Shown one piece after another: positions 26,102 through 63,020 of a DNA stretch of 64,000 bases. The translations under genes were made by a program, and so were the position numbers. Source of the DNA: an uncultured Lachnospiraceae bacterium (GTDB taxonomy: Bacteria; Bacillota; Clostridia; Lachnospirales; Lachnospiraceae). The stretch's first letter is position 1; the number at the start of each line of letters is the position of its first letter. A model generated the notes under the pieces. It made no database searches. It was not told where the DNA came from and saw nothing but the letters and a program-made list of their open reading frames with translations. Where the stretch lies: the NCBI GenBank assembly GCA_944384025.1, contig CALWRS010000001.1, positions 124,001-188,000 of the forward strand. Reading direction: 5' to 3'.

Positions 26102-27953
26102 GTTCGCCCGCCATGGGCGGGCTCTAACGAGTGAAAGTCCCGAGTGCGCGTAGGCAACGACGAAGCACATAGCTGAACAGCAAGGGTGTCCATCGTGAGG
26201 TGGAATCTGGAGGAAGCTGTAGGCAAACCTCTGATCTGACGGACAGAAACCACATATAAGGCTGGGAAATACGGATAAGGCGGCATGAAACGCCAAAGTC
26301 CAAAAGTTGCTGGAAGTACCAGTAAATGTGGCAGGTATATGGAGGGAAAGAGTCCGCACCTTAAGCGGGGAGGTCTCACGGGCGGTTTCAAAAGCCGTAG
26401 TAACAACGAACTGTGAGAAGTCAGCAGAGGTCGTAGTAGCGAAGAAGTTCCTGTAATGGGAATGGAGCGAAGGACCGAACAATCAATCAGTTGAAGTACG
26501 TTCCACTTCGTAGCCGGAGCAAACGCCTGTCGATGACTTCAAAGACGGCAAAGGCAAAAGGGGCAGAAAGGAAACAACGCATGGACACAAGTAGTCTCAT
26601 GGAGCAGATACTAAGCAAGGATAACCTCAATGCGGCATATCTGCAAGTCGTCAGAAACAAAGGAGCGGCAGGCGTAGACGGGATGACCGTTGAGGAACTT
26701 GATGCATACCTTTCGGAAAACGGCGAAAACATCAGGGAACAGCTGCGGACAAGGAAGTATAAACCGAAGCCAGTCAGGCGGGTGGAGATACCTAAACCAG
26801 ATGGCGGGACACAAAACCTTGGAGTACCAACGGTAGTAGACCGCTTTGTGCAACAGGCAGTTGCGCAAGTACTCACGCCAATCTTTGAGGAGCAGTTTCA
26901 CGACCATAGTTATGGGTTCAGACCGAGTCGGTGTGCACAACAGGCAGTACTGAAAGCGTTAGAAATGATGAATGACGGGCATAGCTGGATAGTGGATATC
27001 GACCTAGCAAAGTTCTTTGACACGGTAGACCATGATAAGCTGATGACGATTTTCGGACGGACCATAAAGGACGGGGACGTTATCTCAGTGGTGAGGAAAT
27101 TTCTGGTCAGCGGGGTAATGATAGATGACGAGTATGAAGATACAATCGTCGGCACACCACAGGGCGGGAATATATCGCCGCTGTTGGCAAATATCATGCT
27201 GAACGAGTTGGATAAAGAGCTGGAAGCAAGAGGGCTGGATTTCGTGCGCTATGCAGACGACCTAATCATCATGGTAGGAAGTAAGCAGGCGGCGGAGAGG
27301 GTAATGAAAAGCGTTACCCGATTTATTGAGGAAAAGCTGGGGTTGAAAGTAAATGCTGAAAAGAGCAAGGTGGACAAACCCAAAGGTATTAAGTATCTCG
27401 GATTTGGATTTTACTTTGACACATTTGCCAAGGGATATAAAGCCAGACCGCACCCGAAAGCAGTAGCGAAATTCAAAGTACAGATGAAGAAACTGACATG
27501 CAGAAGCTGGGGAGTGAGCAACAGCTACAAAGTGCAGAAACTGAACCAGCTCATCCGAGGATGGATAAATTACTTCAAAATCGGGAGCATGAAGGGATTA
27601 TGTGAGCGTCTGGATAGTAATATACGCTACCGCCTGCGGATGTGTATATGGAAACACTGGAAAACACCGCAGAATAGGGCAAAGAACCTGATGAAGCTGG
27701 ACGTGCCCAGATGGGCGGCATATAAAATCGCATACTGTGGCAACCGCTATGCGAGGCTTGCTCGTAACGGTTGGGTGCACAAAGCGATAAGCAATGAAAG
27801 ACTAGCCGCATTTGGGCTAGTCTCCATGAGCAACTACTACGCCGAGAGGCGTGTCACTTGTTAAGTTGATTGAACCGCCGCTTGCGGAACCGCATGAGCG
27901 GTGGTGTGAGAGGTCGGAAATTCCTCAATTAGAGGAATTTCCTCCTACTCGAT
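26102..27953 (+). mobile_element. Class C group II intron (about 1.85 kb)
   Basis: The 5' end GTTCGCCCGCC followed by GAGTGAAAGTCCCGA and CAAGGGTGTCC matches the domain I start of class C introns such as O.i.I1. Domain IV holds the maturase gene (26581-27864). Domain V is the hairpin starting GAACCGCCGC at about 27872-27905, followed by the class C style GTGTGAGAGGTCGG and domain VI ending CCTACTCGAT at 27953. It lies directly downstream of a terminator hairpin, the usual class C target, and upstream of a topoisomerase remnant. Boundaries are estimated to within a few bases. It appears intact and may still be mobile. Confidence 0.85.
26581..27864 (+). CDS. ltrA: Group II intron reverse transcriptase/maturase, Marathon-type
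   Basis: 427 aa from ATG 26581 (AAAGGAAAC upstream). Fingers-palm with YGFRPSRCAQQA, catalytic YADD (224-227), PQGGNISPLLANIMLNELD, and thumb/maturase X domain (RSWGVSNSYKVQKLNQLIRGWINYF, RYRLRMCIWKHWKTPQ). There is no DNA-binding/HNH endonuclease domain, as in class C. Very similar in remembered sequence to the Eubacterium rectale intron enzyme (MarathonRT). It aids splicing and reverse-transcribes the intron at new sites. Longer frame from 26491 is in intron RNA and is not likely translated. Confidence 0.95.
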   Translation: MDTSSLMEQILSKDNLNAAYLQVVRNKGAAGVDGMTVEELDAYLSENGENIREQLRTRKYKPKPVRRVEIPKPDGGTQNLGVPTVVDRFVQQAVAQVLTPIFEEQFHDHSYGFRPSRCAQQAVLKALEMMNDGHSWIVDIDLAKFFDTVDHDKLMTIFGRTIKDGDVISVVRKFLVSGVMIDDEYEDTIVGTPQGGNISPLLANIMLNELDKELEARGLDFVRYADDLIIMVGSKQAAERVMKSVTRFIEEKLGLKVNAEKSKVDKPKGIKYLGFGFYFDTFAKGYKARPHPKAVAKFKVQMKKLTCRSWGVSNSYKVQKLNQLIRGWINYFKIGSMKGLCERLDSNIRYRLRMCIWKHWKTPQNRAKNLMKLDVPRWAAYKIAYCGNRYARLARNGWVHKAISNERLAAFGLVSMSNYYAERRVTC

Positions 27954-27979
27954 TTTCAAATCGAAAGGAATGGTTTAGT

Positions 27980-29395
27980 ATGCTATTAGTGGTGGCGGAA
28001 AAGCCCAGTGTCGGTATGGCACTGGCTAAAGCTCTCGGTGTAACCGACAAGAAGGACGGATATATCGAAAGTAATGAGTATATCAGATGGGAGATGACCC
28101 CCGCCTCTATAGGCGTTGGGTAACAAATTTGTATCAGTGGCGGGTGTCAATCCCCCATCTGATATACGCTCCGCGAGGATGCGCAGGGATTCGGATAGGA
28201 AATATGTCGGCAAAAGCCGACCCGAATCCCGCGCCAAGACTCGCGAGCGAGTCTTGAACGTGTCTTGGTGTGTGGGACATCTTGTTTCCCTTGCCAATGC
28301 CGATATGTACGATGAAAAGTTCAAGAAGTGGGATATTGCAGACCTCCCCATTATCCCCGATGAGTGGCAATTTATCATTGCCGAGGATAAGGATAAACAG
28401 TTCGGTATTCTCCATCAGCTTATGGGCGATAACCGAGTAACCGAGGTCGTGAACGCTTGCGATGCAGGTCGTGAAGGTGAGCTTATCTTCCGTCTTGTGT
28501 ATAACAAGGCTCTTTGTAATAAGCCTATCAAGCGGCTCTGGATTTCCTCAATGGAAGAAAAGGCTATCCGAGAAGGCTTTGATAATCTCAGGGACGGCAA
28601 GGATTACGAAAATCTCTATCAGTCGGCTCTCTGCCGTGCAAAGGCGGATTGGATTGTGGGTATCAATGCCACAAGACTTTTCTCCAAGCTCTACAACAGA
28701 ACGCTGAATGTAGGCAGAGTTCAGACACCTACTCTTGCAATGCTTTATGAACGTGAGAACAGTATCCGCAATTTTCAGAAGGAAAAGTATTTCAATGTCC
28801 ATCTGAAATCCGTCGGATTTGACGCAGTACACGAAAAGGTCAAGGAACAGGGCGAAGCCGAGAATATCCGTAGAGATTGTGACGGCAAGGAAGCTATCGT
28901 AAAGTCGGTAAAAACGGAAAGAAAGACCGTAAATCCCCCTCATCTTTACGACCTTACCACTCTCCAGAGAGAAGCAAACAGACTTTACGGCTTCACATCA
29001 CAACAGTTTATGGTGGATATTGAAAAGCTCGTTGAGGATATTATCGCCGTTGCAAAGGAAAGCGTTGATGAAAGCAAGGTATCAAGAAACGGCGGGAGGT
29101 TATCGGCACTTGCCCAAGATGCGGCAAGAATATTGTCGTGACTCCGAAGGCATATTCCTGTGAGGACAGAAACTGCGGTTTTGTTATCTGGAAGAACGAC
29201 AAGTTCTTTGAAAAGGCACGAAAGCCGCTTACAAAGGAAATGGCAGCAAGCCTTATCAAGAATGGTAAGATTGCCGTCAAGGGACTTTATTCGGAGAAAT
29301 CGGGCAAGAACTACGACGCAACTGTTTGTCTTGACGATACTGGAAAGTATGTAAACTACAAGCTTGAATTTGCTCCGAGAAAAAAGAAGAAATAA
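27980..29395 (+). pseudogene. topB: Decayed type IA DNA topoisomerase (TopB-like) of a conjugative element
   Basis: Start MLLVVAEKPSVGMALAKALG (Toprim) at ATG 27980. After codon 35 (ATC at 28082-28084) a 175-bp insert breaks the frame; the protein resumes at GTG 28260 with VSWCVGHLVSLANADMYDEKF, exactly as in intact homologues. At about 29008 LYGFTSQQ is joined directly to FMVDIEKLVEDII, so the catalytic-tyrosine half (some 350 residues) is deleted. Near 29095 a one-base shift separates this from the zinc-knuckle end (TCPRCGKNIVV...YSCEDRNCGFVIWKND). Three independent lesions: the gene is dead. Such topB genes belong to integrative conjugative elements of Firmicutes. Confidence 0.88.
28085..28259 (+). 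mobile_element. 175-bp highly structured insertion element in topB (HEARO/omega-RNA-like?)
   Basis: Inserted precisely between two codons of topB without target duplication. On paper it folds almost entirely: AGATGGG/CCCATCT long-range stem, CGCC/GGCG hairpin, GTATCAG/CTGATA stem, GCGC-GGGATTCGG / CCGAATCCC-GCGC stem enclosing GTCGGC-AAAA-GCCGAC, and a 3' end hairpin CAAGACTCG / CGAGTCTTG. No ORF. Its first 117 bases recur at 30535. A guide-like variable flank followed by a conserved fold, insertion without duplication and end hairpins recall IS200/IS605-related RNA elements (HEARO/omega RNA), but I could not confirm the family. Confidence 0.6.
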
Positions 29396-29463: not shown

Positions 29464-29706
29464 ATGACAATAAACACAAACACGCTGGTTTCAATCACAG
29501 AAGCCAATCAGAATTTTTCCAAGGTTGCAAGGCTCGTTGACCAAAACGGCTCTGCCGTTATACTGAAAAACAATGTTCCTCGGTATATCGTACTGGAGTT
29601 CTCGGAAGTAGAAAAGGTACAAATGGCAGCGGATGAAGATATTGCAGATATTTCTCAAAGACTTATCGCAAAAAACCTTGAAGCCTACAAGGAGCTTGCG
29701 AAATGA
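29464..29706 (+). CDS. phd: Phd/YefM-family antitoxin
   Basis: 80 aa. N-terminal dimer/DNA-binding fold TLVSITEANQNFSKVARLVDQNGSAVILKNNVPRYIVL typical of Phd/YefM, then an acidic helical C-terminal tail (about 50-80) that would bind and inhibit the toxin. AAAGGAGG 8 bases before ATG 29464. The stop overlaps the toxin start (ATGA at 29703), the classic coupled arrangement. Likely maintains the element or acts in stress or phage response. Confidence 0.88.
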   Translation: MTINTNTLVSITEANQNFSKVARLVDQNGSAVILKNNVPRYIVLEFSEVEKVQMAADEDIADISQRLIAKNLEAYKELAK

Positions 29707-30077
29707 TAAGACTTACAACTAAACAGGTAATATCCCTTCACAGCTCTTTGATTGAGGCAACGGGCGGTACAGACGGTGTAAGAGATATGGGACTTCTGGA
29801 GTCTGCTCTTGAAGCTCCGTTTCAGACATTTGATGGGAAAGACCTTTATCCTGCACTTATTCAGAAAGCCGCACGGCTTGGACACTCTCTTATTTCAAAT
29901 CACCCGTTTGTTGACGGTAATAAAAGAATTGGTATTCATACAATGCTTGTTTTTCTTGCCGCAAACGGAGTTGAAATTGAATGTACTCAAAAAGAGCTGA
30001 TAGATGTCGGCTTATCCCTCGCTGACGGAACAATGAATGCGGAAAAATTATTGATTTGGCTCAGCTCACACAATTAA
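29703..30077 (+). CDS. doc: Doc-family toxin (Fic fold kinase)
   Basis: 124 aa. Doc motif HPFVDGNKRIG (67-77), where K replaces the G of AMP-transferring Fic proteins; Doc enzymes phosphorylate and block EF-Tu. N-terminal LTTKQVISLHSSLIEATGG and GLLESALEAPFQTF are standard. Full length, with all motif residues present, so probably active. Partner antitoxin is immediately upstream. It is distinct from the class II Fic protein at 22534. Confidence 0.92.
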   Translation: MIRLTTKQVISLHSSLIEATGGTDGVRDMGLLESALEAPFQTFDGKDLYPALIQKAARLGHSLISNHPFVDGNKRIGIHTMLVFLAANGVEIECTQKELIDVGLSLADGTMNAEKLLIWLSSHN

Positions 30078-30508: not shown

Positions 30509-30536
30509 TACACAGTCAAGAAATTGACTGTGTAAG
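30507..30536. repeat. 13-bp-arm perfect palindrome
   Basis: CTTACACAGTCAA (30507-30519), GAAA, TTGACTGTGTAAG (30524-30536). It ends exactly where repeat copy 2 begins. Could be an operator or an element end hairpin. Confidence 0.7.
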
Positions 30537-30650
30537 ATGGGAGATGCCCCCGCCTCTATAGGCGGTGGACAACAAATTTGTATCAGTGGCGGGTGTCAAT
30601 CCCCCATCTGATATACGCTCCGCGAGGATGCGCAGGGATTCGGATAGGAA
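30535..30650 (+). repeat. Truncated second copy of the structured element
   Basis: 116 bases nearly identical to 28085-28201: differences are one missing A and three substitutions near the 5' hairpin; the last 75 or so bases are identical. The 3' half of the long GGGATTCGG stem and its inner hairpin are missing, after which GAGTCTTGAA reappears. It stands just before marR. Two copies in 2.5 kb at unrelated sites indicate a mobile or duplicated RNA element. Confidence 0.75.
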
Positions 30651-30653
30651 TTG

Positions 30654-30673
30654 AGTCTTGAATTTTTTAGACT
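30654..30673. promoter_or_regulatory. Possible MarR operator
   Basis: AGTCT / AGACT inverted repeat with 10-base centre directly before the marR ribosome site. Confidence 0.3.
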
Positions 30674-30685
30674 AGGTGGTGGACG

Positions 30686-31150
30686 ATGACAAAGGAAGAT
30701 AAGAAAAATGCGTATCTGTACTGTAAGTTTCGGGATGAGCAGTTCGCCCTCTACGATGAATACGCGAAACGTAACGGGATGATGATGAAAACATTTTTGG
30801 TGGTCAATGTGCTTTTCTATGACGCTTTTTACCAAGAAGGCGGTATGACTCAGAAGGAAATCTGTCGGCGGACATTTCAATCCAAACAGACAGTCAACCT
30901 CATCATCAAGAATCTTCTGGCTGAAAACTATGTAACCGTCACCGAAGTGCCGGAAAACAAACGGAACAAGATTGTACGGATGACCGATGCCGGAAGGGCG
31001 CGCTTTGAAAAGGTCGTGCGCCATATTACTTGGGCGGAGGATAGGGCCATGTCCAAGTTTACGCCGGAGGAACAAAAACAACTCATTGCCCTGTCGAGAA
31101 GATTCACACAGGAGCTGACAAGACTTGTAAACGAAGAAAATGCCAAATAA
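30686..31150 (+). CDS. MarR-family transcriptional regulator
   Basis: 154 aa with a winged helix (GGMTQKEICRRTFQSKQTVNLIIKNLLAENYVTVTEVPENKRNKIVRMT) flanked by dimerisation helices. GGTGG lies before ATG 30686. It is 20 bases upstream of a nitroreductase gene and probably controls this operon in response to a small aromatic or oxidant. Its leader carries repeat copy 2. Confidence 0.88.
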   Translation: MTKEDKKNAYLYCKFRDEQFALYDEYAKRNGMMMKTFLVVNVLFYDAFYQEGGMTQKEICRRTFQSKQTVNLIIKNLLAENYVTVTEVPENKRNKIVRMTDAGRARFEKVVRHITWAEDRAMSKFTPEEQKQLIALSRRFTQELTRLVNEENAK

Positions 31151-41714: not shown

Positions 41715-41732
41715 ACAGACAAAAAAAACAAA

Positions 41733-41818
41733 CGGGGAGCTGGCTGGAGCCGGCTGAGAGGAAGCTGTGTTGCTTCGACCCATAACCTGATTTGGATAAT
41801 GCCAACGTAGGGAAGAGC
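41733..41818 (+). promoter_or_regulatory. TPP riboswitch (THI element)
   Basis: Contains the conserved CTGAGA (41754-41759) and ACCTGATTTGGATAATGCC plus AACGTAGGGAA, the pyrimidine- and pyrophosphate-sensor arms of the thiamine pyrophosphate aptamer. It precedes four thiamine genes. When TPP binds, the terminator at 41839 should form. Confidence 0.95.
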
Positions 41819-41838
41819 GGAAGAAAAAGACAAAACTA

Positions 41839-62811: not shown

Positions 62812-63020
62812 ATCCATTTCTGTGTTATTTAGTACGGAACTTTTATCACACTTATTGACCGTTTCACAAGTCTGCGTACAGGCGCATTTCGGTTATGAAG
62901 TAACCAACTTATAAAATTCGAGCGGATAACTCGATCAATAAGGCAACACAAGGCTGCCAATCGGCAGTGGACCCGGCTGTCCGTATGGCCTTAACTCCGC
63001 AAGCGGAGTGGTCCAAGATT
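62778..63020 (-). ncRNA. Candidate structured non-coding RNA, about 240 nt, between prs and speA
   Basis: Bounded by promoter TTGACA-17-TAAAAT (63055-63027) and terminator GCAGGTTGCG / CGCAGCCTGC plus T7 (62811-62778). Between them lie many short hairpins: ACTCCGC/GCGGAGT, CTGCC/GGCAG, CGAG/CTCG, GGTTA/TAACC, TGCG/CGCA, and two long-range pairs TGGACC/GGTCCA and CTTATTGA/TCAATAAG that close a multibranch fold. No ORF. Not 6S, SRP, tmRNA, RNase P or a riboswitch I know. It could act in trans or as a polyamine-responsive leader, since speA starts 64 bases after the terminator. Confidence 0.6.

Follow-up and report, generated by a model that had tools for sequence, protein, structure and literature searches.

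A dispersed hairpin element of Lachnospiraceae with a candidate internal guide matching its insertion sites

The topB gene of an uncultured Lachnospiraceae bacterium is interrupted by a highly structured 175-nt insert, and this insert is one copy of a dispersed repeat. Within the window, the 64,000-nt stretch of DNA that was analyzed, it lies at 28084-28258; one C is shared by both sides, so limits of 28085-28259 are equally valid. On balance, we favor the reading that the insert is a non-autonomous transposable DNA element, here given the working name guide-hairpin element, that would be moved as single-stranded DNA by a putative trans-acting, IS200/IS605-like enzyme. The absence of duplication, a target kept at the left, guide pairing, structured ends, a +1 base preference, and tandem junctions together make up the pattern of single-strand transposition. 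More tentatively, and as a possibility rather than an expectation, the element could represent a new class of transposable DNA across Lachnospiraceae in which a 5-nt guide completes the hairpin at the junction and the enzyme at work is not among the known Y1 transposases; guide and target (TTTAT, TATAT, TTTAA, TTTTA) would then have evolved together as a case of natural retargeting, the natural counterpart of engineered IS608.

The interrupted topB gene and the anatomy of the insert

The insert is flanked by GAGTATAT on the left and CGTGTCTTGG on the right, and six topB relatives read Y(L/R/K)(V/I)SWC(I/V)GH at this site. The original prediction, made from the letters of the window, described an ORF-less insert of 175 nt that shifts the frame of topB and leaves no target duplication. 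The analysis agrees on each point: no ORF of at least 60 aa was found within the insert, the reading frame is broken, and the flanks fit the six relatives with nothing duplicated. The further claim of a clean split between codons holds if insertion was directly after ATC and fails if it was inside that codon (AT^C). The insert with short flanks (28075-28275) has a predicted folding energy of -100.4 kcal/mol (z -8.8, with 0 of 200 shuffles as good), in keeping with the extensive base pairing first noticed, and the terminal hairpin was recovered as a 10-bp inverted repeat (28235-28244/28247-28256). Features of the region, all on the plus strand, are as follows.

27980-28083, +: 5' part of topB (pseudogene), within ORF 27851-28123
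28078-28167, +: hairpin A, with an outer stem across the junction and an inner stem GACCCCCGCC/GGCGGGTGTC
28079-28083, +: native 5-nt target TATAT, kept once 5' of the element and predicted to pair with the guide
28084-28258 (alternatively 28085-28259), +: the element, CAGATGGG...TCTTGAA, 175 nt, delimited by empty sites of other copies, tandem 175-bp units, and topB homologues
28162-28166, +: candidate internal guide ATATA at the 3' foot of hairpin A, from flank/guide covariation in 134 copies
28168-28184, +: conserved core GCTCCGCGAGGATGCGC
28181-28234, +: hairpin B, GCGC-GGGATTCGG ... CCGAATCCC-GCGC, inner GTCGGC/GCCGAC (13 + 6 pairs)
28235-28256, +: terminal hairpin C, CAAGACTCGC-GA-GCGAGTCTTG
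28253-28258, +: right end CTTGAA, strongly conserved
28259-29141, +: middle part of topB, residues ~37-294 of a 693-696-aa homologue, from homologue alignment
29138-29395, +: C-terminal fragment of topB, residues ~614-693, with ~320 residues missing before it
30534-30662, +: second copy in the window, internally deleted, upstream of a MarR-like ORF (30686-31150; named by eye)

From 5' to 3', the element consists of hairpin A (~90 nt), the core with CTCCG, hairpin B, hairpin C, and AA. The pairing of the first hairpin extends across the junction into the 5' flank, hairpin C takes the form CAAG...CTTG, and the two ends of the element, as read from the sequence, bear no inverted-repeat relation to each other. 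Several copies in the host genome lack segments bounded by short repeats; in two of them (L034, L044) hairpin B is deleted between two GCGC words. A subfamily in genome G266 (L177, L179, L181, L183, L185, L207, L208) carries ~54 bp extra between the core and hairpin B.

Relative to homologues of 693-696 residues, the topB of the window also has an internal gap of ~320 residues (~295-613), and by this alignment it is a pseudogene irrespective of the insert. Removal of the insert would therefore not yield a complete enzyme, and the notion of a minimal intron whose loss restores topB, part of the original prediction, is left without a motive. Many copies are intergenic, and some lie in convergent intergenes, which makes an intron unlikely; the insert is probably not a hidden intron. 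As part of the transposable-element reading, we lean towards the topB copy having inserted into a gene that a large deletion has disrupted as well. Just before the topB start, within 26189-27960, there is a group II intron (Rfam RF02001, RF01998) whose ORF (26491-27864) has a YADD reverse-transcriptase motif recognized by eye, and a Phd/Doc-like toxin-antitoxin pair (29464-30077; HPFVDGNKR motif, by eye) follows the topB remnant.

Copies, distribution, and empty sites

In the host genome (G000; 1.92 Mb, 19 contigs), 49 match rows were obtained, which reduce to ~42 places once five self-antisense rows are removed and two split rows are joined; 40 of 74 first-look candidates were scored for this count. 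Thirteen of the 42 places, the window copy included, are near full length at ≥95% identity. It had been predicted that the first two thirds of the insert recur. This is true within the window (30534-30662), whereas in the genome the whole element recurs. The insert is thus not a normal part of topB genes and has other copies, contrary to both outcomes that the original prediction had named as counting against it.

Across the family, a covariance model built from 32 copies found matches in 143 of 397 genomes and in 130 of 334 genera (host counted). A pattern scan of named genomes includes Lachnospira multipara and Coprococcus comes among the matches listed, and most of the matches listed fall in Lachnospiraceae or in genera of that family. 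Such named hosts allow the direct question of which enzyme moves the element. No copy was found in 21 same-genus genomes at E≤0.001, a distant-mode search of plasmid and phage collections with the element gave no match, and the exact element pattern had 0 matches in a viral-contig collection. We found no account of a Lachnospiraceae element of this kind in the open-licence literature, where most subscription papers are absent. The element is thus present in 143 of 397 genomes of a major gut family without any family of Rfam release 15 covering it; it places hairpins in many between-gene regions, and annotators and transcriptome workers will therefore meet it.

Some copies stand head to tail. 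At one host locus (L018 3032-3452; C1:14431-14846), an exact array comprises two full 175-bp units followed by the start of a third, and exact right-to-left junctions occur in two genera (L018, L130). The array at L018 adjoins the end of a dusB-like gene. Two further candidates (L209, L350) also read CTTGAA^CAG, where the caret marks the junction, but the sequence beyond does not go on as element and the match is thus attributed to chance.

Empty sites show what insertion leaves behind. In genome G070, one of two IS605-type tnpA copies contains a 123-nt version of the element that the other lacks, with the empty copy (L235) reading TTATAT^CGAGACG and the filled copy (L245) reading TTATAT[CAGCTGG...CTTGAA]CGAGAAG. 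In the host genome, the stop codon of ruvA is split as TTTAT[..]AG, for which the empty site in G015 reads ATTTATAGGG, and the C terminus of a ComM-like gene is split as GTTTAT[..]AGG, for which the empty site in G017 reads GTCTATCGG (both genes named by eye). Seven joined loci were sought in 22 genomes and two were readable (L044, L024); alignment through the junction failed at four (L017, L018, L021, L026), and L010 had no relative among those compared. In the G070, ruvA, ComM-like, and topB cases alike, a single pre-existing 5-mer remains on the left-hand side, without any duplication. Of 128 distinct 3' flanks, only 4 open with a target word, and no repeated TTTAT was seen at insertions, the single target copy being at the left. 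Compared in this way, the sequences show insertion to be precise, without duplication, and directly 3' of a pre-existing 5-mer (TTTAT, TATAT, TTTAA, TTTTA). The base after the right end is non-random in the 128 flanks (T 78, A 30, C 19, G 1). Together, the dispersed copies and empty sites bear out the predicted mobile, non-autonomous, and precisely inserted nature of the insert.

Guide pairing, helix statistics, and orientation

The candidate guide occupies the five nucleotides immediately preceding [GC]CTCCG, where hairpin A has its 3' foot. It is complementary to the left flank, and the stem is therefore continuous through the insertion junction. Among 134 distinct copies, guide and flank match at frequencies of 0.90, 0.93, 0.96, 0.94, and 0.94 at positions -5 to -1, and the match falls to 0.17 at -6. 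Selection of these copies required a match that started no later than model position 12, extended to position 100, and agreed at 7 of 10 element-internal stem positions; the flank played no part in choosing them. All five positions agree in 102 copies, four in 24, three in 3, and two in 5. Guide types covary with flanks (TTTAT, 54 of 61; TATAT, 32 of 46; TTTAA, 12 of 12; TTTTA, 3 of 7), and the mean of 4.66 matches out of 5 compares with 3.85 ± 0.05 when guides are shuffled among copies. The element appears to pick its landing site by pairing the target 5-mer with the internal guide. Retargeting through a DNA guide, to our knowledge otherwise seen only in laboratory changes to IS608, would have left a natural record in such covariation across genera.

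The helices themselves were compared in an alignment of 30 matches from 29 sources, chosen from 50, with two rows each from the host, G266, G394, and G367 (in a wider run there were 57 matches, of which some were short or antisense). Double-sided changes occur in 37 of 52 helix pairs (30 sequences, 29 loci). The covariation score is 0.371 versus 0.098 for shuffled data, and 94.9% of cells are paired versus 79.8% when shuffled and 23.5-42.2% with slid partners, all figures being somewhat inflated because the alignment was fitted to the structure. Of 1544 helix cells, 11 are G.T, 28 A.C, and 50 other mismatches. By comparison, G.T accounts for 31 of 478 pairs in 22 tRNAs from the same loci (Fisher p = 1.5e-11), a modest control of one set in which ARAGORN admits standard pairs only and the A.C count is uninformative. 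RNA under selection is expected to pass via G.U, which is hardly seen here, pointing to helices that act as DNA rather than RNA structure. Since A.C cells outnumber G.T cells, the pairs do not reveal which strand is read.

The Rfam search that the original prediction had proposed as a check gave no family at gathering score on the element (28084-28258), including group I and II introns, HEARO, and omega RNA; element copies in ten related loci likewise had no gathering-score match. At E≤10, the region 27950-28350 produced only four sub-threshold matches, all to unrelated families. The same search does match group II models to the neighboring intron (26189-26475). With these results and almost purely Watson-Crick covariation, the suggestion of a HEARO- or omega-RNA-like mobile RNA found no support. 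Elsewhere in the window, Rfam matched a TPP riboswitch (41723-41830) and, on the minus strand, the SpF59 sRNA (62961-63014) near a decarboxylase-like ORF.

Most copies between tandem genes share the orientation of those genes. Same/same versus opposite/opposite counts, which rest on gene calls from a simple purpose-made caller, are 23:2 in G000, 19:0 in G266, 16:8 in G394, and 49:11 in other loci. In G000 the sense strand is the G-rich strand in 40 of 45 rows (which include split matches of one copy), and in G266 26 of 30 copies, counted by eye, lie on the strand expected for their chromosome half. Sixteen G394 copies are near-identical and are hence taken as recent. They divide 5 same/same to 4 opposite/opposite (6:4 with a 17th, L188), and 7 of the 16 lie as expected for their chromosome half (judged by eye, with the turn placed at ~1.7 Mb). 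These recent copies are without gene or half bias, so orientation is not decisive, and selection after insertion may explain much of the bias. A strand bias like that of lagging-strand-template use in IS200/IS605 is seen in G000 and G266 and absent in the recent G394 copies.

Known systems and alternative origins

Members of IS200/IS605 (IS608, ISDra2), which transpose by peel-and-paste, share with the element an insertion without duplication, a short T-rich target retained on the left side, recognition of that target by base pairing, structured ends, a +1 base preference, and end-to-end junctions. In the cited passages, the +1 preference of IS608 is for C (PMC5934647), and its guide lies 5' of the hairpin (PMC5934647, PMC6006769). 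In contrast, the element's guide lies at the 3' foot of a long left hairpin rather than 5' of a 20-25-nt one, its 5-bp pairing is Watson-Crick, and its right hairpin is almost at the very end. Engineered IS608 is described in the same passages as gaining specificity through extra target pairing with the 3' base of the left hairpin (PMC5934647, PMC6006769), and it is there that the natural guide of the element sits. The element also contains neither tnpA nor tnpB, and several hosts lack a PF01797 gene. With this Y1 family missing in several hosts and no gene inside, we regard the element as IS200/IS605-like in its working but do not file it there.

In the mechanism that we propose, one strand would be the active form. 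A trans-acting HUH-type, IS200/IS605-like enzyme would cut after the target 5-mer and after CTTGAA, and the ends would be joined into a circle with the junction CTTGAA^CAG, as seen in tandem copies. The guide would then pair with a new 5-mer and direct insertion, target and left end making one continuous stem over the junction. The transposase search covered PF01797 alone and gave no match in G000; among 20 element-rich genomes, PF01797 is present in 14 and absent in 6, four of the latter at least 94% complete. No gene-carrying copy was found in 368 loci, which cover a small fraction of the genomes. Two apparent split copies with genes proved otherwise: L354 consists of two separate fragments around an opposite-strand pseudouridine-synthase-like ORF (by eye), and L183 of two neighboring copies. 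Along with these absences, the 3' position of the guide, the 8 of 134 copies with a guide match at only two or three positions, the 16 unbiased G394 copies, and the excess of A.C over G.T cells, by which the strand read is not indicated, weigh against the single-stranded DNA reading.

Three other origins were weighed. An intron- or ribozyme-like mobile RNA that inserts by reverse splicing, the guide serving as an exon-binding sequence, would likewise fit the guide pairing in the 5' flank and the lack of target duplication, and the strong sense orientation of most sets agrees with this. HEARO/omega RNA and group I/II introns are indeed structured, precisely inserted, and paired with the 5' flank. 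Yet the element has no covariance-model match to them, neither nuclease nor reverse transcriptase, few G.U pairs, and DNA-like pair statistics; three hairpins would give little room for a catalytic core, the recent G394 copies are unbiased, and topB is already broken elsewhere. We consider a mobile RNA improbable. The REP/BIME repeats and their RAYTs offer another model, dispersed and mostly intergenic hairpins mobilized by TnpA-REP, and in G031 (L094) a RAYT-like gene (by eye) has a truncated element copy ~420 bp upstream. This gene is, however, bordered by its own unrelated CCGGGGACGGAG repeats, and several copy-rich genomes have no gene matching PF01797, the Y1 family that includes RAYTs. 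REPs are given as 21-65 nt with the guide 5' of the hairpin in the cited passage (PMC6006769), whereas the element is much longer, has three hairpins, carries its guide on the opposite hairpin side, and lacks the short hairpin with a 5' tetranucleotide guide. A REP-type origin thus seems to us a poor prospect.

A conventional MITE or bcr1-like repeat, whose DDE transposase or site-specific recombinase is encoded elsewhere and moves it in double-stranded form, is unlikely, though less so than either of these. The repeat bcr1 is ~155 bp long. The cited passages describe bcr1-bcr3 of the Bacillus cereus group as short, high-copy, MITE-like, present in UTRs, and tied to TTTAT (PMC6542083, PMC3446304), and the element resembles them in its shortness (18 BCRs span 100-400 bp), copy number, TTTAT, and location in UTRs or intergenes. 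The likeness is one of description; the host group differs, element queries match nothing in the plasmid collection, and the bcr repeats are described in those passages with one or more TTTAT repetitions and no mention of a guide. Against a MITE, neither end is an inverted repeat of the other, target duplication is absent (a target word opens 4 of 128 3' flanks), and a recombinase would leave the covariation of guide and target unexplained.

Finally, other structured sequences adjoin some copies. In G394 (L142), a ZMP/ZTP riboswitch (1392-1477) lies directly upstream of an element copy (1491-1679), and in G023 (L050) another, GTTGCTATAGCAAC-like hairpin repeat stands beside a fragment that shares the ACGCTCCGCGAGGATGCGCA core.
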